Position numbers and translations under genes: made by a program. From Naganishia liquefaciens (taxonomy: Eukaryota; Basidiomycota; Tremellomycetes; Filobasidiales; Filobasidiaceae): a DNA stretch of 64,000 bases. Of the stretch, positions 23,940 through 64,000 are shown one piece after another (position 1 is the first letter of the stretch; each line of letters starts with the position of its first letter). A model generated the notes under the pieces. It had not been told where the DNA came from, did not search any database, and saw only the letters and a program-made list of their open reading frames with translations. The stretch lies in NCBI GenBank assembly GCA_013423385.1, contig BLZA01000030.1, positions 1,566,526 to 1,630,525 on the forward strand, in the 5' to 3' direction.

Positions 23940-24639
23940 GTCTGCTGACCGCTGCGAGAGGGAGTGCAGCAAAGAGACGGCTGTTGCGTGAGTCTTGAGA
24001 TCAGGATGGAAGCCGCAAGCTACGGTGGGATGCAACTTGTTTCCGCGCGCGCATCTGATGTCGGGCGCCGGGTGCAGTATCGCGCGAAAAGCCAGTTGAT
24101 CGCTAAATCGCTGGCGGTTTCTCGCGCAATGATGCTTGCTTTGGCCGTGCAAACGCACGGCTGTCTTGACCGGTTTTGCTGACAAGGTCCACTGGTACAA
24201 CTCTCATTCGCGAAGTCCCTTTGATGGTAGCTCTATGGTTTCACGTACTGTGGCGAGCGATAGTGCAGGATTTGACCCGATTCGTATTCTTTTGGGTCAT
24301 CAGCTTCGACCGGAATATCTGCCGCGATTTGCAACAGGTCGAGCCATTCTTATCAAGTAGAGCCATTCGCGTCGTTGATAGGAAGTGCAGGAGTCGCTAT
24401 TGATGGCTGTAAGAAAGGCATGTAATACAGTCGCTGAGGCTTCGGATCTTCACCAAACGGAGGTGAAATATATTTCTTTCGCCATCGCAAACAACCGAAA
24501 CCTTTAGGAGAATCAAAATCTGCAACCTGACCTTCCAAAGCACGGAAACCTTGGACACAACTCATGGTCAATGTACAGCATCATGTAGCTTTTCGAAGAG
24601 GACTTCATACTGATATTTCTGAAAAACTAGATGTACAAG
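23940..24639. other. Upstream region of the deacetylase gene
   Basis: Weak frames only, on both strands. I see no recognisable gene in this interval. It presumably includes the HDAC promoter. Confidence 0.4.
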
Positions 24640-24680
24640 GGTCAGGGGTTAGGGGTTAGCGGTGAGGGGTCGAGGGTTGC
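24640..24680. repeat. Short interstitial telomere-like tract
   Basis: GGTCAGGGGTTAGGGGTTAG is followed by degenerate GGTGAGGGG and GGTCGAGGG units and then TGCATCAGAT. This resembles the start of the retroelement 3' ends seen later (TTAGGGG units followed by TGTATCAGATACC). No clear element body follows, so it may be an old, decayed tail or a chance G-rich tract. Confidence 0.5.
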
Positions 24681-24790
24681 ATCAGATCGAAAGTCTTTAC
24701 ATCGAGCGATTCCTTATGCGCTCGAGCGGCGCCGACGGACACGTTGAAGGCTATTTCTAGAGCTCATTCCGCTGGTACAGCGGCTTTGTG

Positions 24791-31456: not shown

Positions 31457-32401
31457 CTATTTGAGCTTGACGATCGACCGCAGGCTCGGCATGTATCCTG
31501 ATCGGCAAAAATCAGCACACGAGAAATTTCCTCCCGGCATTTTGTCTTTCGCAGATTCGTTTGGCGGCGTACCTTTTTCATGAATGATATAGTGGATGAT
31601 CTCGGGTGTGCCCTTTGTAAGCGCCGTATCCACCAACGCCTGACTCAGCCGCACGCCTGACACGGACGCAGGCTCGGAGCGAGTATGTTTCCTTCGTTTC
31701 GCGGGCCGCGGGGCGTCTGTCGTATCGGAAGGCGGCCCATCGAGGAGGAGCCGCAGCGAGGCAAGGTCGCGTCGCTTGAGTGCGATTTCGACGGCGAGGT
31801 GGTCGCGCTGTGCTGGATCTGCGCCGGCACGGAGGAGCAGGGTGATGAGCGGAATATCGGCGGCGAGGACGGCGCGGGAGAGGGGGTAGCCGCGGTGCGA
31901 GTTCGGGGATGAACGGTAAGTGGTGAGAAGGTGGGTGAGGAGCGGGTGCGTAGGGTGTGTGATGTGTGATGCGGTGGAGCGCGGGCGAAAGATGCGTTTC
32001 GGGAGGGTCGGACAGAGGAGAGTGGCCTTTGAGGAGGTGAGATGGAACCACGGCGTGGGATGGTCGGGAGCTGCAGCGTCACGTTCGAGGGCAAAGATGC
32101 GCTCAATGTGCGCGAGGACGTCTAGCTCGCATACGCCGCACTCGAGGGCGCGCGAGAGGAAGCGCGAGGTGTCGGCCGTGGCGGAGGGCGGGTGGTATTT
32201 GGCGATGAGCCAGTGTGCGGCGCGCAGGGGCGTGGGATGGGCGAGGACGGCGTGGAGGTAGCGCGTGGCGAGGGGGAGGTGCTCGGAGAGGGAGAGGTGG
32301 TGGATTTCGTAGAGGAGCTGGAGGATGCAGCGGGTGAGCATGCAGAGAGGGGGAGGGAGGTGCGGGCGTACTTCTGGCGGGAGGTCGCCGAGGGATGGCA
32401 T
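31457..32401 (-). CDS. Ankyrin-repeat protein
   Basis: Two exons encode about 290 residues starting at the ATG at 32401. The N-terminal part is helical and Leu/His-rich (LLYEIHHLSLSEHLPLATRY). The middle holds ankyrin-like repeats: YPLSRAVLAADIPLITLLLR, AGADPAQRDHLAVEIALKRR and DLASLRLLLD. A Lys/Arg-rich stretch (RPAKRRKHTR) may be a nuclear signal. The first exon ends at IIHYIIHEK and splices to GYMPSLRSIVKLK with the stop at 31457. No catalytic domain is visible, so a role in protein-protein contact is inferred. The start codon sits directly beside a pentanucleotide microsatellite. Confidence 0.72.
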   Translation of the reverse strand: MPSLGDLPPEVRPHLPPPLCMLTRCILQLLYEIHHLSLSEHLPLATRYLHAVLAHPTPLRAAHWLIAKYHPPSATADTSRFLSRALECGVCELDVLAHIERIFALERDAAAPDHPTPWFHLTSSKATLLCPTLPKRIFRPRSTASHITHPTHPLLTHLLTTYRSSPNSHRGYPLSRAVLAADIPLITLLLRAGADPAQRDHLAVEIALKRRDLASLRLLLDGPPSDTTDAPRPAKRRKHTRSEPASVSGVRLSQALVDTALTKGTPEIIHYIIHEKGTPPNESAKDKMPGGNFSCADFCRSGYMPSLRSIVKLK

Positions 32402-32486
32402 GGTGCGGTGCGGTGCGGTGCGGTGCGGTGCGGTGCGGTGCGGTGCGGTGCGGTGCGGTGCGGTGCGGTGCGGTGCGGTGCGGTGT
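32402..32486. repeat. GGTGC pentanucleotide microsatellite, about 17 units
   Basis: Near-perfect tandem GGTGC units fill about 85 bp. On the minus strand this is the sequence immediately 5' of the ankyrin gene start codon, so it would form its 5'UTR. Because the unit is five bases, every frame through it is open, which produces spurious ORFs on both strands. Confidence 0.95.
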
Positions 32487-32696
32487 GTGGGGCGACCGAG
32501 TATGGCGGATGGGCATGGGCATGGTGAAGTTAAACGACCTCGTCGGTAAAGGTGGACGCCCCTGTCCTGTTTTTATTTGCATCCGCCGCTCGATCGAAAA
32601 ATACAACGCCGAGGGAATTATCAGAGGGAGGTGTCGCCTTGTTCATTTCACGCATCCACGGCCTGTTCCATTCACCCCGTCGTCAAGCCAGGCACC

Positions 32697-47165: not shown

Positions 47166-47203
47166 CACTGGAAGGCGAGCCGGGGTTATGCAAGTCCCTT
47201 CAC

Positions 47204-47410
47204 TCCAAGGCCGACGATAAGATCCGGCGTTTACCCCGAAACGGTATTCCTTGTAAAAGGAGAAGGAAAGGATTGAGGAAGAGGAGATCTTGACACCTAC
47301 GGGTTCGAATGTCGACGGAAGTGGAATTTTCTCTAGTTTTGGTTGAACTAGTCTTTAAATGTATACGTCAGTTCAATGTTGGTATCTGATACACCCCTGA
47401 CCCCTAACCC
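47204..47410 (+). mobile_element. Telomere-tailed retroelement remnant, opposite orientation
   Basis: SKADDKIRRLPRNGIP is the same segment found near the C-terminus of the large element ORF at 51.9-55.3 kb. It jumps directly to KRRRKGLRKRRS and the element 3'UTR, so about 170 bp of the coding end is missing. The fragment ends in the shared 3'UTR sequence (GGTATCTGATACACCCCTGACCCCTAACCC at 47381-47410, in two overlapping parts). It therefore lies on the plus strand, the reverse of the other copies, and is 5'-truncated and internally deleted. Confidence 0.88.
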
Positions 47411-50630: not shown

Positions 50631-51698
50631 TTAGGGGTTAGGGGTTAGGGGTGTATCAGATACCAATATTGAACTAACGTATACATTCAAAGACTATTCT
50701 ACCAAGATCAAAAACTCCAATTCCTTCGATATTCGCACCCATCCAAGTTCAAGATCCTCCTCTCTCCTATCCTTCCGCCTACAGAACGAACGATCTCGCG
50801 CGTGCCTTCAATAAGATCAAAGATAGCTGTTGGCACAGGGTCGAAAAGGCCGCAGGAGGCATTGTGTCCTGCCACAGTTTCATTACCTCGACCGTTCCCT
50901 TATCCATCATTCCTCCAACTGTGAATACCAACGGTGTGAAGGGAATGCCGTTCCGGGGCAGCCGCCGGATCTTATCGTTTGCCTTGGAATCCAAGAACTT
51001 TGCGATTAGGGAGTAACATCGTTCGGTCGGCTCATCGGGCGCGAGGTTGGGAGGAATGCGAGTCTCCACTGAGTCCCTGGTAGATAAGGAAACCACCGTG
51101 ATATCGTATTCGTGACGCGCTACCCCAGATGTAGGATTACCGGTCACCCGAATATCATTTCGCCGGGCGGTACCTCCGATAAGGGGTTCCACTACGACCG
51201 CTACTCCTGGATTTTTGCTGAGCGCAGACGCGATTGCCCGTTTCACTTGTTCGTGCCGGGCCGTATTCCACTTCTGGCGATGGACACACACCTCGGCATG
51301 GCCGACTTCTAGTGTCCTGATGCCGCAGTGTCGGCAAACCCCTCCGGGGGCCGGCAGCAAGGTCTTGATATGTAGGCCCGCTGAGACTCGAAGTCGGAAA
51401 GACGCAACGATGCGTGGAAGGGGACAATCGAAAGCCACTTTTTTCCGAGACCTGTAGACGATTCGAGTATGGTTTTAATTTGTTGATCGCTCAGGTTGGA
51501 AAAAAGTTCCTTTCGTGTCGCTTCAAACACTTCGTCGCAGCGTTCCCGTTGTGGAATGATCGAGCTCAGATCGTATGGGTTGGACAACTCGTCGGGTACT
51601 TCTCCAGAGCCCAGCAAAGGCTCTAGAAGAAGGTCCGCCACGTCTCGGGCCGCGCTGTGTGCCAGGGGAGCGCATGTTTCGTACGACAAGAGCCCCAC
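50631..51698 (-). mobile_element. 5'-truncated telomere-tailed non-LTR retrotransposon copy (A)
   Basis: The copy begins inside the ORF at LLSYETCAPLAHSAARDVAD on its right side and retains the endonuclease region: CRHCGIRTLEVGHAEVCVHR, then RRNDIRVTGNPTSGVARHEY and DITVVSLSTRDSV, ending LLKARARSFVL. A one-base deletion near 51,390 shifts the frame within RLSDF/RVSAGL. The 3'UTR follows and ends at its left side in three TTAGGGG units (50631-50651 on the plus strand; CCCCTAA in element orientation). Its right edge is cut precisely where the TTAGGGG tail of the neighbouring copy starts. Confidence 0.93.
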
Positions 51699-51726
51699 TT
51701 AGGGGTTAGGGGTTAGGGGTTAGGGG
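51699..51726. repeat. Telomere-like tract between two element copies
   Basis: Four perfect TTAGGGG units form the 3' tail of copy B and sit directly on the truncated 5' edge of copy A. Shorter versions occur at 50631-50651 and 63928-63944, and reversed at 47391-47410. Confidence 0.95.
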
Positions 51727-51862
51727 TGTATCAGATACCAACATTGAACTAACGTATACATTTGAAGACTATTTCAACCAAAACTAGAGAAAATTCCACT
51801 TCCGTCGACATTCGAACCCGTAGGTGTCAAGATCCCCTCTTCCTTAATCCTTTCCTTCTCCT

Positions 51863-54800
51863 TTACAACACGAAAGACCTTGCTCGCGCCTTCAGCAAGA
51901 TCAAGGACAATTGCTGACAAAGGGTCGAGAAGGCCGCGGGAGGCATTGTGTCCTGCCACAACTTCATTACCTCCACTGTCCCTTTATCCATCATTCCTCC
52001 GACTGTAAATACCAAAGGGGTGAAAGGGATCCCATTCCGAGGTAGCCGTCGGATCTTATCGTTTGCTTTTGAGTCGAGAAACTTGGCGATCAAGGCGTAG
52101 CAGCGCTGGGCCGGGTCTTCCGGAAGTAAGTTGGGAGGGATCCGCGCATTGACCGAGTCCCGCGTCGAAAGAGATACCACCGTGACGTCGTACTCATGCC
52201 GAGCGATGCCGGACGTCGGGTTACCGGTGACGCGGATGTCGTTTCGTCGAGCGGTACCACCGATAAGGGGCTCTATTACGACCGCAACGCCTTGGATCTT
52301 GCTCAGTGCCGATGCGATAGCTCTTTTCACTTGCTCGTGTCGGGCAGTGTTCCAGCTGTGTCGGTGAGCGCAGACTTCGGCGTGGCCGACTTCGTACGTT
52401 CTTAGACCACACTGGTTGCAAACCACGCCGGGTCCCGGAACTAGGGTTTTAACATGCAGGCCAGTCGAGACCTGAAAGTCCGTAAGTTGTAACTGAGCGT
52501 GAAAAGGAACAATGGAAAGCCACTTCTTGCCCAAACCTGTGGCCGACTCGAGTACGGTTTTTATTTGCTGATCGGTCAGGTTGAGGAAGAGCTGCTTCCT
52601 TGTTTCCTCGAACGCCTTGTTGCAGCGCTCTCTTTGGCGAACTATGATAGGTTTGCCATCCTCGTCTGTTTCTGGAAGCGGTTCGGGGCCGGGGCCAAGC
52701 AAGGGTTCGAGCAAATGATCCGCCACATCCTGCGCCGCGCCATATGCCAAAGGGGCACAGGTTTCATAGGATAAGAGACCAAGACCTCCCAATCTGACAG
52801 GCAAGGAGTACAGAATGTCGGTAGTCTTGGACTGTGACTCTGTGAGGTTGTCGGTGTTCGCCGCTCGGATCAAATTGGCGGTGTCCCAGATCGACCGATC
52901 CAATCTTCTCCAGAGACTCGTTAGGTCCTCGCCTAGCAGGCATCTTTGAAGATGTCGAAGTTCATGCTGTAAACATTGACGCAGCAGTAACAGGCTATGC
53001 TGGTGGGGAAGGCCGGCGAGTCTGGCCATCTTTTCTTCCAGCTTGACAACCTTTCTTTCGAGGAATTTTCCTCGGGCTCCAGCCGGGCCGATGTAAGAGC
53101 CCAGAATTTCCATCCCGGAAGTCTGAACGTCGGTCAGCGACACGATTGATGTCTTGGTGTTGTTTAGTTGTAAAGAAACAGCATCGGTGCTGAAGAAGTT
53201 GAAGACCTCCTGAAGGGTATCGGAGGACTTGCTGAGGATGTAGATGTCTTTCAAGTACGCCAGGATTAAGGCGTCGTGCCCGAGAGCGGTGGTGAGCTCG
53301 TCCAGCATGGGTCGGATCCCTACGGAGAAAAGCAAGGGCCCAAGGGGGTCGCCTTGTCGAACGCCTTGGCTTGAAATGATGATTTCGGGGACATCTTCAA
53401 GACCGCCAGAGACCAGGTCAGACGGCTCGTTATACGCCCACTTGGCGACCTTCCAAAGCCCTGGTGCATATCTCTTGACGGCGTTCGCCATTTCCCTTCT
53501 GCTTAGAGTGTTGAAGGCGTTCCGGAAATCGAGGGACGAAACGTGTGTAAAGTGTTCGTCGAGAATCGTACCGTCCATCGCCCGTTGTACCGCTCGAATT
53601 AGAGGCTCAACGCCGCTTCGAGTACCCACCCCGAATTGACAAGGGGATAGGCTGTCGGGTCGGAATGAGTGTCGGAGGATGGCCTTTGTGCACAGACGGT
53701 AGATGAGTTCGCCAACTGCAATAGGGCGAACTCCGCCATCAGGTTTGTCCAACGCGATGAGCCGGGACGCGCAAAGAAAGCTACGTCCTGGAGCGGTTCC
53801 GGCCAAGAGCATGGTGACCAAAGTGGTGAGCATTTTCTTGACCGGTTCCGATCGCATGGCGATTTTGAGAAGAGGCACCGTCCATCCTGAGATGCCAGGG
53901 GCGGTGTCGTGTCGAAACGACTGAAACGCTTTGACAATATCTTCGGTGGAAGGCGGCATGTTGGCGAATTGCGGTCCAACATTGTCACCAAAAGGATTTT
54001 CCTCGCCCTGGGGGTGTTTGTCCCTTAACGTTTCAAGTACCTCGGGCGTTTGACCTGCGACCGATCCATTCTGGTCGAGAATTCTCGAAGCATTTCCGAG
54101 CCTCCCCAATTCGACTTGATGTTGAATGGAGGGAGCTTTCCTTTCCCCTCGGTGATTGAACACGCGGAGTTGAGGAAAGTTTATGCCCGGGTAGAGTCCG
54201 AGGCGGTGGATGCTGTCGGAAGAAGCACCCAGACAGACTTTCGGGAGACAGAGAAAGTCGAAGATGGCGCGATCGTTCGGATTGGCGGAGAATTGCAAGG
54301 CCAATCGTTCCGCCGCGTTCTTGAAAGCCGCAGCCACAGGAGGAGGCAGAGGCCTATAGGTCGCCGGGAAACGAGCCAGAGCAATGAAAGCCTCGTCCAT
54401 CTGGTGGTAGCCGAAAAAGGAACCGGGAGGCGGGGGTGGGAGCACAGGCGCACCATCCATCCGGTATGGATAGAATATGTCTCTTCCATCCATATAGACT
54501 TCAGGCGTACCATAAGGTTGACCAGAAGGAACAAATGGTCGAGGACCGCGGACTGTTCCGTGAGATCTCGGAGCGTTCGCGCTTACTTCGGGAAAAGACT
54601 CGTCGCTGGAGCCATCCGAGTCGGATTCATCTTGCTCGTACTCGCTATCGCCCGTTCCTTCGTCGCATTCGTCGGTCTCGTATTCTTCCGGTGTTTCTTC
54701 GCGTTCCCAACTGGGGTCACGTTCACCGGCATTGTTCTCATCCGTCTCTGACGACTCAACAAAATGAACTGATCCGTTGCCTGACGTTGACTCGGTCTCT

Positions 54801-55342
54801 TCGGAGGAAAACAATGGAAGGTCTTGCAGGTTGGTGTCCCTTTCACCGAGTATTCTTCGCGAGGCGGCCGTGGCAATGACTTGGCTAATCGGCCGTGCCA
54901 GAATTGCGTTGATTTCCTCCTCCAGCTGATCTTGGAGTTCTCCGTCAGAAGCGACGGCGTCTGCTTCAAGGTCGAGGGTGGAAATGCTTTCAGAGGGTTC
55001 CTCTGGTCCGGGCATGATACGGTCCTCTGTAGACATCTCCGGTTGATCTTGAAGAAGTTCGGCGAGTTCATTTTGAGATTCTTCCACGGCGTTTGAAGGA
55101 GTAACATGGCGAGTCATCGCCTGTTGCGCTCCAACGCAGCCGGTCCGGGCGTGATGGGAATTAAGTCCTTGAGCCGAGGCAGTGACGCTGCCGCAAAGAC
55201 AAACGACGAGAGATGTGCCTTCAAAGTCGGACTGTTGGAACTGGTGTCGCTTGTGACTCTTTCGTACGTGTTCCAGCAGATCACCGAATCGCCGAGTGCA
55301 CAATGGGCAGTTTCCTGGGCCGGATCGGACTCGAGTTGGCAT
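51863..55342 (-). CDS. R2/CRE-like retrotransposon polyprotein: zinc fingers, RT, restriction-like endonuclease
   Basis: A single uninterrupted 1159-residue ORF. Residues about 10-30 form a C2H2 finger (CPLC, then LLEHVRKSH) and about 48-70 a second CxC...H...C finger. Residues 90-290 are acidic and probably disordered. RT motifs include RLIALDKPDGGVRPIAVGE, motif A SLDFRNAFNTL, motif B SSQGVRQGDPLGPLLFS and motif C AYLKDIYIL. The endonuclease part has the CCHC knuckle CNQCGLRTYEVGHAEVCAHR and the PD-(D/E)xK-like block RRNDIRV...RHEYDVTVVSL. Motif C should read Y-L-D-D; here the first aspartate is lysine (codon AAA), which should abolish metal binding and polymerase activity. The remaining ORF is intact, so inactivation seems recent, or this copy is mobilised by others. 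The truncated copy A and the 47.2-kb fragment share its C-terminus. Confidence 0.93.
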   Translation of the reverse strand: MPTRVRSGPGNCPLCTRRFGDLLEHVRKSHKRHQFQQSDFEGTSLVVCLCGSVTASAQGLNSHHARTGCVGAQQAMTRHVTPSNAVEESQNELAELLQDQPEMSTEDRIMPGPEEPSESISTLDLEADAVASDGELQDQLEEEINAILARPISQVIATAASRRILGERDTNLQDLPLFSSEETESTSGNGSVHFVESSETDENNAGERDPSWEREETPEEYETDECDEGTGDSEYEQDESDSDGSSDESFPEVSANAPRSHGTVRGPRPFVPSGQPYGTPEVYMDGRDIFYPYRMDGAPVLPPPPPGSFFGYHQMDEAFIALARFPATYRPLPPPVAAAFKNAAERLALQFSANPNDRAIFDFLCLPKVCLGASSDSIHRLGLYPGINFPQLRVFNHRGERKAPSIQHQVELGRLGNASRILDQNGSVAGQTPEVLETLRDKHPQGEENPFGDNVGPQFANMPPSTEDIVKAFQSFRHDTAPGISGWTVPLLKIAMRSEPVKKMLTTLVTMLLAGTAPGRSFLCASRLIALDKPDGGVRPIAVGELIYRLCTKAILRHSFRPDSLSPCQFGVGTRSGVEPLIRAVQRAMDGTILDEHFTHVSSLDFRNAFNTLSRREMANAVKRYAPGLWKVAKWAYNEPSDLVSGGLEDVPEIIISSQGVRQGDPLGPLLFSVGIRPMLDELTTALGHDALILAYLKDIYILSKSSDTLQEVFNFFSTDAVSLQLNNTKTSIVSLTDVQTSGMEILGSYIGPAGARGKFLERKVVKLEEKMARLAGLPHQHSLLLLRQCLQHELRHLQRCLLGEDLTSLWRRLDRSIWDTANLIRAANTDNLTESQSKTTDILYSLPVRLGGLGLLSYETCAPLAYGAAQDVADHLLEPLLGPGPEPLPETDEDGKPIIVRQRERCNKAFEETRKQLFLNLTDQQIKTVLESATGLGKKWLSIVPFHAQLQLTDFQVSTGLHVKTLVPGPGVVCNQCGLRTYEVGHAEVCAHRHSWNTARHEQVKRAIASALSKIQGVAVVIEPLIGGTARRNDIRVTGNPTSGIARHEYDVTVVSLSTRDSVNARIPPNLLPEDPAQRCYALIAKFLDSKANDKIRRLPRNGIPFTPLVFTVGGMMDKGTVEVMKLWQDTMPPAAFSTLCQQLSLILLKARARSFVL

Positions 55343-55379
55343 GACGCTTTTCAGACGTGTCGGACCTTTTCAGACTTTT

Positions 55380-56617
55380 CAGACTACCAAGAAAAAACAA
55401 TTCAACCCGCCACAGGATCAGTTTGTGTTTTTTCAGGAATCCCGAAAAAAGACGACTCACCAGAGTTTGCAACGAAAGCGGAAGACGCAAAAGTGGCAGA
55501 TGCAACGTTGAAAAACCTGTCAGCCATGGAAGTTAGTGAAGGCTTCTGGACTTTCGACTCGAATTTCACTAACCGATGATCAGTGCCGAAGAACAGCAAC
55601 GATGACGAGTTTGACCCGTGACGGCGATCTAACAGATTCAGGTCAATCCTTGTCTTTTTTCAGGAATCCCGAAAGAAAGCACGTACCAAGGGATGTAGGG
55701 CAAGTAGCAGCAGTTGCCCAAAGTCAACCAGTCAAAGTTGTTCCGATCTGCAAAGAAGGCAGGTAAGCTATGTCTTTTTCCCGGAATCCCGAAAGAAAAC
55801 ACATACCAAGCGATGCGAGAAAAATTGCGAAGATTGCCAAAAGTCAACCGACGTCAATGTCATGCGATCTGAGAACAAGGCGGATCAGATGTGTCTTTTT
55901 CCGGGAATCCCGAAAGAAAACGCGTACCACCAGACAGGGAGTCCAATCCACGGGTTTCAGATGCAAATCCAGGTAAACCAGGTTGATCTGAAGCCACACG
56001 ACGTCAGCATCATGCGTTCTCACGTGCTCAGCCGACTTACTAACACACGATGCCGAAGATGGTTCCACAGTCGAGACCTGCCAACAGAGTCAAATCAGAC
56101 ATGTCTTTTTCCAGGAATCCCGAAAGAAAGCATACACCAGATGCCAAGAAACAAAAGTCCACCTGGAATCGAGGCAGGTCAGTTTTGTCTTTTTTCGGGA
56201 ATCCCGAAAGAAAACACATACCAGATGCCAAGAGACAAAAGTTCACTTGAAGGCGAAGCAGGTCAGTTTTGTCTTTTTTCGGGAATCCCGAAAGAAAACA
56301 CATACCAGATGCCAAGAGACAAAAGTCCACTTGAAGGCGAAGCAGGTCAGTTTTGTCTTTTTTCGGGAATCCCGAAAGAAAACACATACCAGATGCCACC
56401 AAAAAGAAAGAGGGAGGGCTTGACAAGGGGTAAATGCAAGATCGCACCGATAGCTATGGCTGACTTACGAGATCAGTTGGAGTCGATCAGCAATGTCCTT
56501 TCTTGACGAGACACGACGACGAGTACCTTTTCTATAAGGAGGGATGAATCAGCAATCCTTTCGAATATGACCGCAAGTCTATGCTTACCAGACTACCAAG
56601 AAAAACAATTCAACCCG
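55380..56617. repeat. Direct repeat pair bracketing the palindrome array
   Basis: The 33-base segment beginning AGACTACCAAGAAAAA and ending CAATTCAACCCGCCA occurs at about 55380-55412 and again at 56583-56616, with one base indel. The two copies are 1.2 kb apart in the same orientation and enclose eight of the palindromic repeats. This could be a segmental tandem duplication of the retroelement 5' region. Confidence 0.8.
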
Positions 56618-57206
56618 CCAGCAAAAACCAAAGGGCAAGAAGGGACAAAGCAGATCACCATCTTTATATACACAATTCCCGCATCGAGCTCGCCGTTTCA
56701 AGGCAGACACAAGGAGCGCACGCGCGCTTTCGCTCAATCAATGCGCCCAACGCGCTATTTCGAATTTCCCTTTAAGCGCGTATCCACCCAACCCCCTTCG
56801 ATTTCGGTCGACTTCTAAACTTTTGCTATGCCTTGTCTGTCTTTATCCATGGTTCCTGGAGAGAGTCGTTCCGGCCCTTTCAAGGTATACATTGGATAAG
56901 TCTTTCTGACAGCCCGTCACGATGCCTCAAGTCTTCTCTTTACGTAAGTTCCGGTAAAGAGAATTTCTACTCGATGATCTTCCGCAGTCCAGTGAGAACG
57001 TGTTTAGCCGCTGTTTTCTTTCAGGAATACTGATAAAAGACATCCCAACATCACTTTTCTGCGCAAGTCCTGCATAAGACAGAGTCAATCCATGCCTTAC
57101 TTTCTTTCAGGAATACCGCAAAAAAAGCATACACATATCTCCAAGGTCCTCCAGAACGTGCGGTCTTGTGAACAATCGTTTTCTTTCAGGAATACCGAAA
57201 AAGGAC
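55425..57206. repeat. Left cluster of imperfect palindromes (TTTCGGGAATCCCGAAA family)
   Basis: Eleven copies are seen near 55427, 55653, 55773, 55893, 56103, 56187, 56271, 56355, 57014, 57098 and 57178. The core is TTTCGGGAATCCCGAAA, an eight-base inverted repeat around one central base, extended by T-rich and A-rich arms so that each copy can form a hairpin. Copies 6-8 are spaced exactly 84 bp with near-identical spacers (a tandem repeat), while copies 1-5 have diverged spacers. The last three are diverged (CAGGAATACCG...). The 84-bp period is a multiple of three, so long frames stay open on both strands (plus 55862-56506, minus 56040-56447). These encode repeats such as LFSGIPKENTYQMPRDKS and are probably not real proteins. 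Confidence 0.9.
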
Positions 57207-57479
57207 ATTTTTGGGAATACCCAGCAAAGAAGATGTTTCTCAATCTCTAACTAAGACAGGAGCGTGGATGCCGGCTTTTCTTGCGGAAAAAGAAGTCAGT
57301 ACTCAACTATTCGTTCAGAGACCAGTGGACTGTACATTCCCCCATGAGCAGCTTTATCAAAAATTGCTGTGCGATCTCTACAGGATATTTGAGTCGACAG
57401 AATGCGCATCGCGAATAAGGAACTAATAAAACATGTGATTCCATACATAACACGTTCATATTTCACATTCATATTTACA

Positions 57480-60400
57480 TCATTGCGACCATTGCGAGGA
57501 ATTGGAAAGAGTTCTACACGTTTCGAAGTCATCCTCAGAGTCTGGAACCACCGCCGTTAGCGGACCAGCTGACTCTATTGGACTTGTTGTCTCCTCCCGT
57601 TCGGTAGGCTCCAAAGCACAGGTAGGTAGGCCCGGACTTTGGGTACCCTCTACTTCTGGGACGTTTTCTTCTGCCGAGCAATCTTTGCCATCCGATACTG
57701 GAACATCGCAGAAGTCGTTTTCTTGCTCGGCTTCCTTGTCCGATTCCCTCGACTCGTCTCTCGCGCCCGCGTCATTATCACACTCCCGTTCACTCTGCGC
57801 TTCCTCTTCGCTCTCTTTGTTCCCCTCCTCCCTTTCCTCACTCTGACTCTCGTCATCTCCCTGTTCGCCTTCTTCGGGATCGTTTTCTGCTTCACTGCCT
57901 TCAGCTTCTTCGCTGCCTTCACCTCCTGCTTCTCCCTCAGCATTTTCTCCCTCAATATTTCCTTCACTGCCTTCACCTTCTCCCTCATTCGTTTCTCCCT
58001 TCTTTCCTTCCACAATCTTTGGCTTCTCGTACAGATCAATTGAATCGTCCTCGTGGTTGATGGACTTTTCTTGTCTGATTCTGATGAACCGATGAAGGGC
58101 AACAGCCGCGAAAGGTATAGTCCAAGCGAGAAAGTTGGTGCAATCCTCGAGCTCCTGCCGCTCAAGGCGTCTGCGGGTGCCTGGTAGATACGCAAAAGGC
58201 GGCGTGATTAGCAGACTGACAAAGCCGGACACAACATCCTCCCATTCGGGTTGCGCTTGGATACAGAAAGATTAGCAATATGAGAATGCGCCATCCATTC
58301 TCAAGCTCACAAATGTCGGGGTGCAAGGTCATCCGCTGGGCGACTTGTACCAACATAAAGTATCCAATTATTGACTGCCACCCTTGGTCTCTAGCGGGCG
58401 GGTAGCAAGGACGATCCACCAACATCTCCAAGGTACCCCGTACCGTTCGGTGACGCATTGAAGGTCTGGGTGGATCTAAGTGGTAGCTTCGCAACATTCC
58501 AGGGGAATAAAAGTTCCCTTCTTCGCTATAGCAAGTCCGAATGTTGTACCAGGCAAATTCGTGACCGGGTGGAATAATACTTTGTCTTCCAGTTAATTAC
58601 CGCTCTACTCTGCATATTCGCCATGCTTACATGAGATCTCCAGCTTTCTGAACAGTGAGAGTCGTCTTTCTCCCCTCCCCTGCCGGGCCGTACAACATGA
58701 CAAGTCGTTCTCCTTTAACGCGCCAGGTCAATAAGATCATGACACATGCGGAGCTCATAGCTGACTTACCTCGAAAAAGCACAGACCACAACATGCTCCC
58801 AGCGAGCGGAACGTTCTTTTCTCGGATGGAGCCGACGAAACCGACGCAACTGCGAATACCGAAAGTATCGGCCACACAGGCTTGGAGGTTTTCTTGATGA
58901 CCTTTCGGATCACGAACGCTCGGAAACCGAGGAAGCAAGCCCTCATGAGGGTCATTACTCCAGGATTTTTCATTCCAGGGGAGGCGCTGAGCCCAATACC
59001 CTTGAAGACGAGACCCAATGTATTTGGACTTTCGACTAAGCTTCGAGTTCATAGAGCTTTGAGCGTATCCTGAAGATGAGAATCGAGTTCAGCAAACGCG
59101 TGTGACTTGGTAGCTCGGGGTACTCACCACATGGCTCTCCGTAATACAAAGGGATTGTGCTCTTGATCCAAGACATGGCGTCACGAAGACCCTTCCCAGT
59201 CTCTTCCATGGCTCCTTCAAAGTTGGGACTTCTTGTGGCGGGCCCTTCGCAGTCCCCGGCACAACCCTCTGGAAAGAAGCCAAAATTGAGTTCTCGCTGC
59301 ACACGACTCCGAATTTGCGCAGCGCATGGGAACAAGAATTCCTCGTAGAGCCTCTTGTGTACTGCCAAAACATCTTCCGACGCGTCAATCTTGTTCCAAA
59401 GGTTACAGATCTCAGTGCGCATGGTACCGTCTATCCCTCTGTCTATTTGCAGTATTCAATCAGTGTCCCCTTTTCTCTCTTTTCGATGTTTCTTCTGACA
59501 AGCTTACACTGCAGAATGATTTTAGCTGGGTCTACCCCTTCAGGGTTCGACAGGTCACTGAAAGAGGGCTCAAGAGGAGACTTGCGCCGCAGAACGTTCT
59601 CTATTAAGGGGATGCCACCTCGTTCGCTATCGTGGCAAGTCAATATTTCAACTTCTGCAGTTGTCCCTAATCACCTACAGATCATCCTCCAAATCAGGCA
59701 AGCCAGGCTTTCGTCGCCGTAGGTCGCCGTCATCTTGTGTTGTTACTACGCCTCCGGCTAAAGACGAAAGCATTTCCCATCTCGCTTCACGCAAGCCGCT
59801 TTGCTTGGTCATTGGCAACACGATCCAAGAGTTTACGTAGTCCCGCCCATTCTGCATCTTGAGATGGTCGTGAAACCCAAAGAGCCTGTCAGCCCATATT
59901 TTACCACTTGTAGGGTCGTCAAAAGCGAACGTTCCCGCGGAGCCATGACCATGGACATAGGCAGAGTTTACCCATGCTTCGAAATTGATCAACGCTTTTC
60001 TGGGCCCACAGCTAAGCACACGGTATTTCCATAGGTCAAACGCTCCTTTGGGAGACTTTTCGCTCAGCCGTTCGGCAGCAGGAGGCGAAACCTTGCAAAC
60101 GTGTCTGTGCGAAGGACATCTCTAGTCAAGAACCGCCTCCGGCATCCTGCATTTGGTTTACTCACTGTTCTTCTTCTTCTTGATCCAGCTCAATGTCCCT
60201 CGCTCCGGATACTATGGGCGGCGTCGGCAATCTTACGCTAGGGTCTTCTAGTTCGGCTTCTGAAGGCCGATTGTTTTCTTCATCTGATACCTGTTCGATG
60301 ACGCTTCGGCTGATAGCTGTTTATGCCTATCGGTCAGACCAGAAATTTCCGCTGACTTGGACTTGTACTCACGAGTCTTCCTCTTTCGAGACTTCTTTGC

Positions 60401-61186
60401 GGCTCGTAACAGTTCTGCATTGGGAGCGGGTCGTTTCTTGCTGTTCTCGTTCAGCGTGAAGACCAGGGATTCAAGGTCATACTTCATTTGTCGGAAGTCC
60501 ACTGTAGTGACCGCTCTCGATACACCTTGAGTGCCGGTTCCGATTGCCAATCGTCGATCTCGAATCTCGAAAAGATGCTTTTTGAAGATAGCGAGGTCGA
60601 GGTTGAGATTCTCACAGAGTTTAGCAACCACAAGGATTTCACCCAGCTTGGTCTTGCCAAGTGGTTTGATGGTCGGTGCTTCGATTCCATCCTTTGCCTT
60701 CTTACGTCGCTTTGGCTCGACGTGTATCTCCAATTCCCTCATGTAATTATCCCCAAATACCTTTTTGATAAAGGCTTCCCCAGTCTGAAGCTGGGTGTCA
60801 ACGGCATGGCCCTTGAAGAATTTCTCCAACGTCGAGTTCCACCTGAAATGGTAATCACACTGTTCTTGAAGAACGGTTACCGTTTCTCTTAAAAGGTCCG
60901 CCCTTTTTTGATCCTCGGTCGTTCTTTCGATGACTCGACTGATGAGGAATGGCATGGCCTCGTTAACGACGGCGTCGGTGTACTGTTGACATATTCCAAG
61001 TACATGTTGTCGGGTCGGTTGATTGCCTTTGAGAAGGTCGATGAGCTCTTGGCGGAGCTGTTGAGCTTCGGGGCTGAGAATACTGCCGGGAACGAAGGCG
61101 GTGTTCGATCTGATCAACGAAGGGCTGACCTCTTCTAGAGGACTGCCAGGAAGAGCTTCTTCCGGCTCTGAGTCGTATGGCGTCAT
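57480..61186 (-). CDS. Large multi-exon protein of unknown function with acidic C-terminal region
   Basis: The ATG at 61186 opens MTPYDSEPEEALPGSPLEEV. The first exon (to about 60,372) is helical and charged (ILSPEAQQLRQELIDLLKGN; WNSTLEKFFKGHAVDTQLQT; AAKKSRKRKT). It splices to PISRSVIEQVSDEENNRPSE and LPTPPIVSGARDIELDQEEE. Later segments are GAFDLWKYRVLSCGPRKALI, NFEAWVNSAYVHGHGSAGTF, DRLFGFHDHLKMQNGRDYVN, IDASEDVLAVHKRLYEEFLF, WIKSTIPLYYGEPCGEYPEL, SIREKNVPLAGSMLWSVLFR, LVMLYGPAGEGRKTTLTVQK and YHLDPPRPSMRHRTVRGTLE. The C-terminal exon (58232-57480) is hydrophobic at first (FLAWTIPFAAVALHRFIRI) and then about 150 residues rich in Glu, Asp, Ser and Gly. I recognise no family. Some exon joins in 58.2-59.6 kb are unresolved. 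Basic and acidic blocks suggest a nuclear protein, by inference only. The gene lies between two clusters of palindromic repeats. Confidence 0.55.
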
Positions 61187-61366
61187 GCTGATGGTAAATA
61201 TGAAGAAGTGTCAACCCTAGTGCATCTCGCGTGCCAACGATGAGAACGTACTTGTAAGGGCGATGATTCAGCTAACTTCTGATAAATATATCTTGTAATG
61301 GGATTCTAAAAGCTGATGTCAGAGGCATGGATATACCGACATGGTTAAGGTACTTACGCTTCTGAT

Positions 61367-61588
61367 GTCTTTTTTCGGAAATCCCGAAAGAAAGCAAGAG
61401 TCTAATGTTCGCGTGTTTGTCTTTTTTCGGGATTCCCGAAAGAAAGCAAAGCGTCAGTTCCAACCTTGATCCAAAAAATGCATCACCCACTCACAAGCTG
61501 ATGTTGTGTCTTTTTTCGGGTTTCCCGAAAGAAAGCAAGAGTCTATCGTTTGCGTGTTTGTCTTTTTTCAGGGTTCCCCAAAGAAAGC
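61367..61588. repeat. Right cluster of imperfect palindromes
   Basis: Four copies of the same palindrome family lie near 61367, 61418, 61508 and 61559, all in the same orientation as the left cluster. Spacing alternates at about 51 and 90 bp, and the spacers alternate too: GCAAGAGTCTA..G.TTGCGTG after copies 1 and 3, GCAAAGCGTCAGTT after copies 2 and 4. The unit is thus a tandem duplication of a 141-bp pair. The centres differ (AAATCCC, GATTCCC, GTTTCCC, GGTTCCC) while some arms keep pairing. Confidence 0.88.
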
Positions 61589-62759
61589 AAAGCGTCAGTT
61601 CTGTCTTGTGTCTGATACTGCCAGCCGCACCTACCAAAGATCGCACCGCCACGTGTGTGCTTGGTATGCGCTGTGAAATGTGTGCGTTCAGGTTGTGTAT
61701 ATTTCAAGTTGTACGTGTTTTGAGTTGTCAAGTATGTTTGCGATAGTTCTCCCTGAGGACCGACGAGGACTACCAAGGCCAGCGTATTAGACTCTCAATA
61801 TCCACAGCGTCGTCACGTCGAACTTACATGGTGTTCACTGTTTCCTCGCCGGGATAATCAAGCCCCTGCACCAACATTTTCCTCGTCCAAAAGCCCTTGT
61901 GTCTCTCAGAATCCATTCTCCAAACCTACCCCCGAAGCCGTCAAATGACTCTGTTACAAGCGCTAGAAAGCGCGCCTAACAATGCGAGATTTACGTGTAC
62001 ACCAAATGAGATCATCAAATGAGCCTACTTCTACAACTATTGTACTTTTGCTATAGTCAAAGGACATCTGTGTACTGGACATCTCAGTTCTGCTGAAACG
62101 AGTCAAGACAGAGCTCGTTCAAGACTGCATTAGCAACCCTCCATATTTATCGATCTCAAGCTTACCCATTTTCTTTAATCATCATGGCAATCGTCTCACA
62201 ACTGATGTCTTTCGCTGTCAAGTTCCGGCCCAAGTCAGTTGATTATCAGACACTCGATTCAACAACCAGCCTGAAAGGAATACATACTTGATCTTTCCTC
62301 ATGGTTATTTGATGTCGTCATTCGAAAAGGCTCACTGTCCGCTAGTATCGTTATTATGATCAGTAAGGTATCCCACTTTTCGAAGCAAGAGCCACGTGCC
62401 TCGCAGTTCGCAATCTTCATTCAAGCCGAAAGCCATGTTTGCATCCCCTCATTCGATGTCATAGCGTAGGAGCTCACAAGAAAAATATAGTACCAGAGAT
62501 CAAAGTCTGCTGATTTGACGGATAAATTCTGCGCATGATTTTCCGGTCAGTAGAGGTTCCATATGGCCACTTAAGCTTATCTTTAGTGTTGCCAAACGCT
62601 GTGCTATCTCATGGGCGACTCAGGTCCTCCCACGGCCGTGATCCTCGCTATCACCCCTTTGAAACTTGATCCCAAATTTACCATCACAAACAACATCATG
62701 CTGTTTCAATCCCTCACGCTCATCCTGACTTTTATCAGTTGCCCCCTTTCCTTAACAGG
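61589..62759. other. No gene seen
   Basis: About 1.2 kb with stop codons in all frames every few dozen bases and no repeat family I can recognise. It lies between the palindromes and the tandem satellite. Confidence 0.5.
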
Positions 62760-63927
62760 CTATCACCAAGATGATCCTGCTACCTGATCCTTTGTCCCTT
62801 CATACTTCGTTATTATCGCTTGAGCCGGGGTTACCGAGCTTTCTATCACCAAGATGGTCATGCTACTTGACCTTGTCCGACTAGATGGCAGCGTTGGGTC
62901 TCGCAGACATCTAGGTCCTTTGAAGCAATACCAATATCTTATCGAATGTCGTCCGTCCACACCGATCCATGCCATCATCAAGAGACTTTGGCAAGAATCG
63001 CGAACAACTTCCAATGTCGCACTGAAATTACCCAGCAGAATGTCGTGCCGCATACCATCGTGTTTCCCCGAATCAAAGTCCATTCAGACGACATTCGCCA
63101 ACGCTCTGACAAACTGCACTCGGGTGTGGATACCAAGTACAGCCGCTCATATCATTAGACGAGTAGTCATCCTTCAGGAATCCAAATCAAGTATTCACAA
63201 TGGTGCCAATACAACTCCTGAATGATACTCTTGTCCCCTCTATAGCCACTCTTCTGATCTTTGATCAAGGCGATCAAACTTTGAGCCTACATTCCCTTGA
63301 CTATCACCAAGATGGCCATGCTACTTGACCTTGTCTGACTGGATGCCAGCGTTGGATCCCGCTGATTTGAGTGACATCTGACTTGGAGCAATCCCAGTGA
63401 TCTATCGACAGCTGTCCGTCCACACCGTTTCATGCAATTGTCAAAGACTTGTGCAAGAATCGCGAACAACCGTCAATGTCGCACTACAACTACCCAGCAA
63501 AATGTCGTGCCACATACCATTGTGATCCCCCAAGTTGAATCCCACTCAGACGACTTCCGCCAACGCTCCGATGAACTGCACTCAGGTGTGGATACCAAGT
63601 ACAGCCCCTCAGATCATTAGACGAGTAGTCATCCTTCAGAAATCCAAATCAAGAATTCACAATGGTATTGATACAACTCCCTGACGAGGATCTTATTCCC
63701 TCTGTTGTTTCCTCTATTGTCTATTGCCCCCCATTTCACCATGGTGATTAAACCTTGAGCCTGCACTCCCTCGACTATCGCCAAGATGATCATGCTACTT
63801 GATCTTGTCCGACCAGATGAAAGCGTTGGGTCCCGCTGATATCTAATTCGTGTTCCTTTGAGCATTCCCAGTACTTCAATGGGAGTTGTCCGTCCACACC
63901 GACGCATGCAAATGTAAGTAGACTTTT
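62760..63927. repeat. Three tandem repeats of about 460-475 bp
   Basis: Units start with CTATCACCAAGATG(G/A) at 62843, 63301 and 63775 (periods 458 and 474), and a short partial unit starts at 62760. Shared landmarks in each unit are ATGCTACTTGA(C/T)CTTGTC, AGCGTTGG(G/A)TC, GTCCGTCCACACCG and, in the first two, CAGACGAC(A/T)T(C/T)CGCCAACG and GATACCAAGTACAGC. The copies are diverged by point changes and small indels, so the array is not recent. The third unit is interrupted after GTAGACTTT by a telomere-tailed element. Short frames inside are not conserved between units. A subtelomeric satellite is the likely identity. Confidence 0.88.
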
Positions 63928-64000
63928 GGGTTAGGGGTTAGGGGTGTATCAGATACCAACATTGAACTAACGTATACATTCAAAGACTAATCTACCAAGA
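63928..64000 (-). mobile_element. 3' end of a further telomere-tailed retroelement, leaving the window
   Basis: Two TTAGGGG units preceded by GGG are followed by GTGTATCAGATACCAACATT and the same 3'UTR start as the copies at 50.6 and 51.7 kb, in the same orientation. The body would extend beyond position 64,000. Its sequence just after the tail (CATTCAAAGACTA) is closer to copy A than to copy B (CATTTGAAGACTA). Confidence 0.92.

Follow-up and report, generated by a model that had tools for sequence, protein, structure and literature searches.

A probable further LINE of the CNL1, MoTeR and FoTeR kind, tailed with telomere-like repeats, in Naganishia liquefaciens

Fungi are already known to carry LINEs of the restriction-endonuclease type (REL) that end in telomere repeats, for which arrays and 5′ tandem repeats have been described, as have internal relics and truncated copies. 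As described in PMC12810828, CNL1 belongs to the R2 superfamily (CRE-type according to PMC7175516), has MoTeR as its nearest relative, forms subtelomeric arrays beside telomere repeats and is said to insert into its own copies. The same account reports 5′-truncated insertions, TSDs containing CACCCCT away from telomeres, and 13 CNL1 insertions in FRR1 of C. neoformans with TSDs of 0–13 bp (PMC12810828). These insertions, like the internal relics of MoTeR (PMC7367193; PMC8381367), mean that internal copies are not the novelty for which a preliminary description of the present locus had taken them. The internal MoTeR relics have been interpreted as former chromosome ends (PMC8381367). Concerning FoTeR, the REL consensus is given as C[X2]C[X6]H[X3]C[X9]RHD.X20.E.X19.RAD.X12.E, strongly similar in MoTeR and SLACS/CRE (PMC12857005). 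As for the telomere itself, TTAGGGG is the repeat used for Filobasidium floriforme, which has a GC content of 52.9% (PMC9210288), and for Cutaneotrichosporon (PMC10568926), while that of Tremella fuciformis is given as TTAGGGGG (PMC13288022). Seen against these, TTAGGGG tracts make a tremellomycete host plausible.

The window analysed here is a stretch of 64 kb of contig BLZA01000030.1 with a GC content of 54.0%. The sequence TTAGGGGTTAGGGG matched at six start positions forming three arrays, none of which arose in 100 shuffles of the window, and TTAGGGTTAGGG was absent from the 64 kb. All occurrences of TTAGGGG/CCCCTAA fall within five telomere-like tracts, four clear and one decayed, and none lies elsewhere in the window. 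The first copy, c1 (50631–51698, minus strand), is 5′-truncated and has a tail of three units: its body (50652–51698) comprises the REL-coding 3′ part of the ORF and the 3′ UTR, with at least one break in the reading frame (near 51390), and the tail, (CCCCTAA)3 in element orientation (50631–50651), is followed by GTTTCTCC. The fullest copy, c2 (minus strand, from 51699), carries the tail (CCCCTAA)4 at 51699–51726, which is fused directly to the 5′-truncated end of c1 (residues VGLLSYETCAP), making a head-to-tail pair. The third, c3 (47243–47410), has the opposite orientation on the plus strand and consists of the last ~150 nt of the element with the tail CCCCTGA CCCCTAA CCC (47394–47410); a more diverged REL fragment lies ahead of it (47186–47251). 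Additionally, the 3′ end of a fourth copy, c4 (63928–64000, minus strand), continues past the window edge and has the tail (CCCCTAA)2 CCC in element orientation (63928–63944). Finally, c5 (24639–24687, minus strand) is a decayed telomere-like tract (24639–24676) with ATCTGATGCA adjoining; it is possibly an old 3′ relic of the element, the ATCTGATGCA match being weak when taken alone (698 of 20000 random stretches score equally well). The preliminary description had located the element at 50631–64000, which is right for c1, c2 and c4 and leaves out c3 (47.2 kb, opposite strand) and the decayed fifth tract at 24.6 kb. No chromosome end was recognised in the 64-kb window, where the c2–c1 pair and a tandem repeat beside c4 are seen.

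All four clear tracts come directly after the same 3′ end, TTGGTATCTGATACA followed by CCCCT, with the same junction phase in 4/4. Directly ahead of the tract, a stretch of ~56 nt is nearly identical in all four, which confirms that four copies share a 3′ end and continue into about two to four CCCCTAA units; a junction with telomere-like repeats is thus present in every clear copy, and a decayed tract adds a fifth case. In c2 the 3′ UTR extends over 51727–51862 (minus strand), and the conserved ~56 nt are its final part. Comparison of the c1 and c2 3′ UTRs gave 49 identities in the last 56 aligned columns (one of the mismatches is the final base, where the c2 sequence was cut one base short) against 58/85 in the columns preceding them, and this higher conservation suggests that the end of the 3′ UTR serves as a functional 3′ signal. 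RNA folding of six 3′-end stretches found none notably more stable than its shuffles (z from −0.46 to 2.12), and a stem-loop is not claimed. A 19-nt pattern of the 3′ end, sought in viral contigs, had zero relatives there.

The open frame of c2 starts at 55369 and comprises 1168 codons, and the single long ORF within it, counted from the first ATG, has 1159 codons (51863–55342, minus strand; 3480 bp). Near its N-terminus there is a putative C2H2-type finger (55253–55309, minus strand; residues 21–39 of the open frame), recognised by pattern match only. The non-LTR-type reverse transcriptase (53099–53749, minus strand; residues 541–757) matches RVT_1 (Pfam PF00078, E = 3.8e-15) and is found in the c2 copy alone across the window. 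Among PDB entries it is closest to R2 proteins (best E = 1.8e-8), after which comes a group II intron RT (E = 1.7e-5). Box C (53246–53257, minus strand) reads YLKD against FADD in the aligned R2 proteins, so that the catalytic aspartate is replaced. An RT lacking this residue is expected to be inactive, barring sequence error, and the RT of c2 is probably inactive, judging from its box C. The putative REL core (52187–52420, minus strand) reads C-x2-C-x8-H-x3-C-x9-RHE-x20-E-x8-RND-x14-EYD, with identical order and spacing in c1 and c2, both of which show the C-terminal order CCHC, RH(D/N), E, R-x-D, E. Set against the published consensus, c1 and c2 have E as the residue following RH, one spacer that is shorter by 11 residues and others that are off by 2. 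RVT_1 was the sole match in a Pfam scan of the ORF with E up to 0.1, which returned neither a finger nor an endonuclease model; the finger and endonuclease assignments are supported by their motifs, and the earlier designation as a restriction-endonuclease-type LINE stands on motif order rather than on a Pfam match. No relatives of the whole ORF or of the c1 REL part were found in viral and prokaryote contigs. A structure prediction of the RT and REL parts from a three-row alignment had a mean pLDDT of 34.5 and was discarded. Identity with R2, which inserts in 28S rDNA, was rejected on direct inspection of the flanks, which comprise TTAGGGG tracts, the ~470-bp repeat and further sequence that differs from copy to copy.

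Nucleotide identity between c1 and c2 is ~73%, and 177 of 204 REL residues are identical; over these 204 codons pN is 0.079 and pS is 0.76, with synonymous sites saturated. On these codon counts the REL domain has been under purifying selection, and the combination of saturated pS with low pN implies that c1 and c2 both come from lineages long kept functional.

Upstream of the c2 ORF lies a probable 5′ leader (55424–56392, minus strand) with tandem repeats that hold eight copies of a near-palindromic motif, TGTCTTTTTTCGGGAATCCCGAAAGAAA. This motif occurs 15 times within 55.3–62.0 kb (spread over 55424–57215 and 61366–61597): apart from the eight upstream of the c2 ORF, three copies at 57.0–57.2 kb match better in reverse and four precede an unrelated gene model whose start is at 61186. 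When its 24-nt core is sought with up to 3 mismatches, the window sites are only those at 55.4–56.4 and 61.4–61.5 kb, and it may be a regulatory repeat common to two neighbouring genes. A 33-bp direct repeat (97%; 55380–55412 and 56589–56620) brackets the tandem-repeat leader, a TATATAAA box is located just upstream of it (about 56670, minus strand), and the 5′ end of the element may lie in this region. Concerning the neighbouring genes, a home-made exon finder applied to 8 regions gave one plausible spliced model (61186–60162, minus strand) and otherwise weak ones, a hint that host genes are spliced. Further minus-strand frames continue down to 57480, and those of 57480–61210, the last part of which is very acidic, are perhaps one gene; four frames tested in this region had zero Pfam matches above the curated cut-off. 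Farther away, a perfect 5-bp tandem repeat of GGTGC (16.8 units, 100% matches; 32402–32485) overlaps a minus-strand open frame (31457–32572). The view that the copies sit internally among genes holds in part, given that among 10 frames (of 42 listed) examined by Pfam over 46.7–61.2 kb the RT alone passed the cut-off, and that the ~470-bp repeat abuts c4. Overall, the interpretation put forward in the preliminary description is partly supported.

Alignment of the window copies with their flanks, in keeping with that description, gave the common 3′ end in 4/4 and different outer flanks. On the primer strand, the independent junctions read AC-TTA-GGGG (c1), AC-TT-GGG (c3), AC-TTTT-GGG (c4) and AC-AA-GGG (the doubtful c5), that is, the form AC[AT]{2,4}GGG in 4/4, while AC[AT]{2,4} precedes 27 of 1344 G-run starts (2%) in the rest of the window. 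The raw probability is 1.6e-7 for the four and 8.1e-6 without c5, values that overstate the case, as the form was picked after the junctions had been seen; AC(A/T)2-4GGG is a hint of a target preference. The c2–c1 junction, which also reads ACTTAGGGG, was left out of this count because its GT may be c1's own codon, and an earlier rule of AAGT after every tail was narrowed on the same ground. Past ACTT the flanks of c1, c3 and c4 are unlike one another, which is evidence against a single common subtelomere. The c4 site is set in a diverged ~470-bp tandem repeat (62843–63921; about 2.3 units, 77% identity) whose last unit is cut by the c4 tail at AGACTT. At this site unit A reads AGACTTTGG and unit B AGACTTGTG (in wider view AGACTTTGGCAAG for A, AGACTTGTGCAAG for B and AGACTTTTGGGTTAGGGG for the cut unit). 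Since A and B carry ACTT, the ACTT of the junction was host DNA before the element or tract arrived, which suggests priming at short telomere-like sites.

We consider it probable, with some reservation, that this is a telomere-associated REL LINE of the CNL1/MoTeR/FoTeR kind whose internal copies were inserted at telomere-like seeds. The element RNA would end in, or pair through, CCCCUAA units, and the endonuclease would nick a site with a telomere-like 3′ end. Such a site may be supplied by the repeats of a chromosome end, by the tail that an earlier copy left behind, or by a short chance sequence of the type ACTT(T)GGG. A G-rich primer would then pair with the CCCCUAA of the RNA and target-primed reverse transcription would start, often halting early and leaving 5′-truncated copies. 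Anatomy, array and junctions are seen in the sequence, and the RNA tail, the nicking site and the priming step are what we infer; the tract would be at least partly RNA-templated, and the internal copies would most likely be direct insertions at short telomere-like seeds. The insertions of CNL1 into FRR1 with CACCCCT TSDs offer a precedent for direct insertion (PMC12810828), and the same seven letters are also present at the tail junction of the present element. Pointing the other way, (CCCCTAA)3GT flanks c1 on both sides and may be a target duplication; read as a duplicated target it counts against a tract carried by the element. A bolder version, which we put forward tentatively and ourselves lean against, is that RNA with a CCCCUAA tail resembling a telomerase template enables the element to extend real chromosome ends and its endonuclease to use AC(A/T)2-4GGG genome-wide, each insertion planting interstitial repeats that can later break or be healed as telomeres.

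The element might instead insert only in terminal repeats, each tract being the remnant of an old telomere and the internal copies relics of ends that were broken, fused or copied onto, as for MoTeR. Several observations agree with such former chromosome ends: c1, c2, c4 and c5 are oriented as expected at a right chromosome end, the tandem repeat adjoins the c4 tract, and short exact matching, which covered c1/c2, c3 and c5 (the far side of c4 falls beyond the window), gave no convincing TSD. Specifically, the 3′ flank of c1/c2 shares with 55.4–62.2 kb no exact match longer than 9 nt, a length reached twice and at unrelated offsets, c3 had zero exact matches of at least 7 nt, and the one 7-nt match of c5 was not accepted as a TSD. 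The G runs at the junctions are compatible with this origin too, for telomerase healing of a break can also begin at GGG, but the shared AC, placed two to four bases ahead of the Gs, is not predicted by healing. Moreover, three former ends would be needed within 17 kb (c1/c2, c3 and c4), a number that rises to four within 40 kb once c5 is counted, and c3 would have to be an inverted end. MoTeR relics are described as short, 5′-truncated 3′ ends that carry brief telomere tracts and lack TSDs (PMC8381367; PMC7367193), a description that also speaks for former ends, and we regard this origin as the less probable of the two, though a serious alternative. That chance or assembly produced the pattern, through G-rich simple repeats next to an otherwise ordinary LINE or through telomeric reads wrongly joined in the assembly, appears very improbable in view of the absence of such arrays from all 100 shuffles, the identical junction phase of the four clear copies, of which c1 and c2 are synonymously saturated, and the different flank at each outer junction. 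If direct insertion is true, internal telomere-tailed relics need not be former chromosome ends.

Among the matches listed in the open-licence literature there was no paper on the present element, and its place is best seen against the three described systems. An association with telomere-like sequence as in CNL1 and MoTeR, already proposed for this locus, is borne out by its motifs, tails and array structure. CNL1 as described and the present element have in common 5′ truncation, internal copies and the letters CACCCCT (in the TSDs there, at the tail junction here), and the c2–c1 pair may be a counterpart of the CNL1 arrays; the element differs in that the longest CNL1 insertion is ~3.5 kb with an ORF of ~2.5 kb, whereas the present ORF by itself reaches ~3.5 kb, and in the telomere repeat, TAACCCCC in C. 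neoformans and CCCCTAA here (PMC12810828). The AC(A/T)2-4GGG junction bears on the recognition sequence of CNL1, stated as an open question in that source (PMC12810828), and provides a concrete target hypothesis that is testable wherever a genome carries an element of this kind. With FoTeR of Fusarium oxysporum it shares, according to PMC12857005, ORF size (3453–3555 bp, here 3480 bp), an N-terminal C2H2 finger (in several FoTeRs, putative here), the order of REL residues, tandem repeats upstream of the ORF and a 3′ end followed by telomere repeats. In the same account, however, FoTeRs have been recorded at chromosome ends only, unlike the internal copies here, their 3′ UTR has 336–409 nt against ~136 nt, and their REL spacer is E-x19-RAD rather than E-x8-RND (PMC12857005). 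The coiled-coil PF25600 after the RT was not found by Pfam with E up to 0.1, and because of this the element is not filed as a FoTeR proper. MoTeR1 of Magnaporthe/Pyricularia oryzae is a REL-type RT element in telomere repeats (PMC7367193), the same type as here, and MoTeR relics are internal 5′-truncated 3′ ends with short telomere tracts, as here (PMC7367193; PMC8381367). These two sources report intact MoTeRs only in telomeres (PMC7367193; PMC8381367), while the complete-frame copy described here sits in a window that shows no chromosome end; variant repeats are described at MoTeR 5′ ends, and none was identified here, where the edge of the c2 leader is only probable. The present element is a further example of the CNL1/MoTeR/FoTeR kind and not a new kind.
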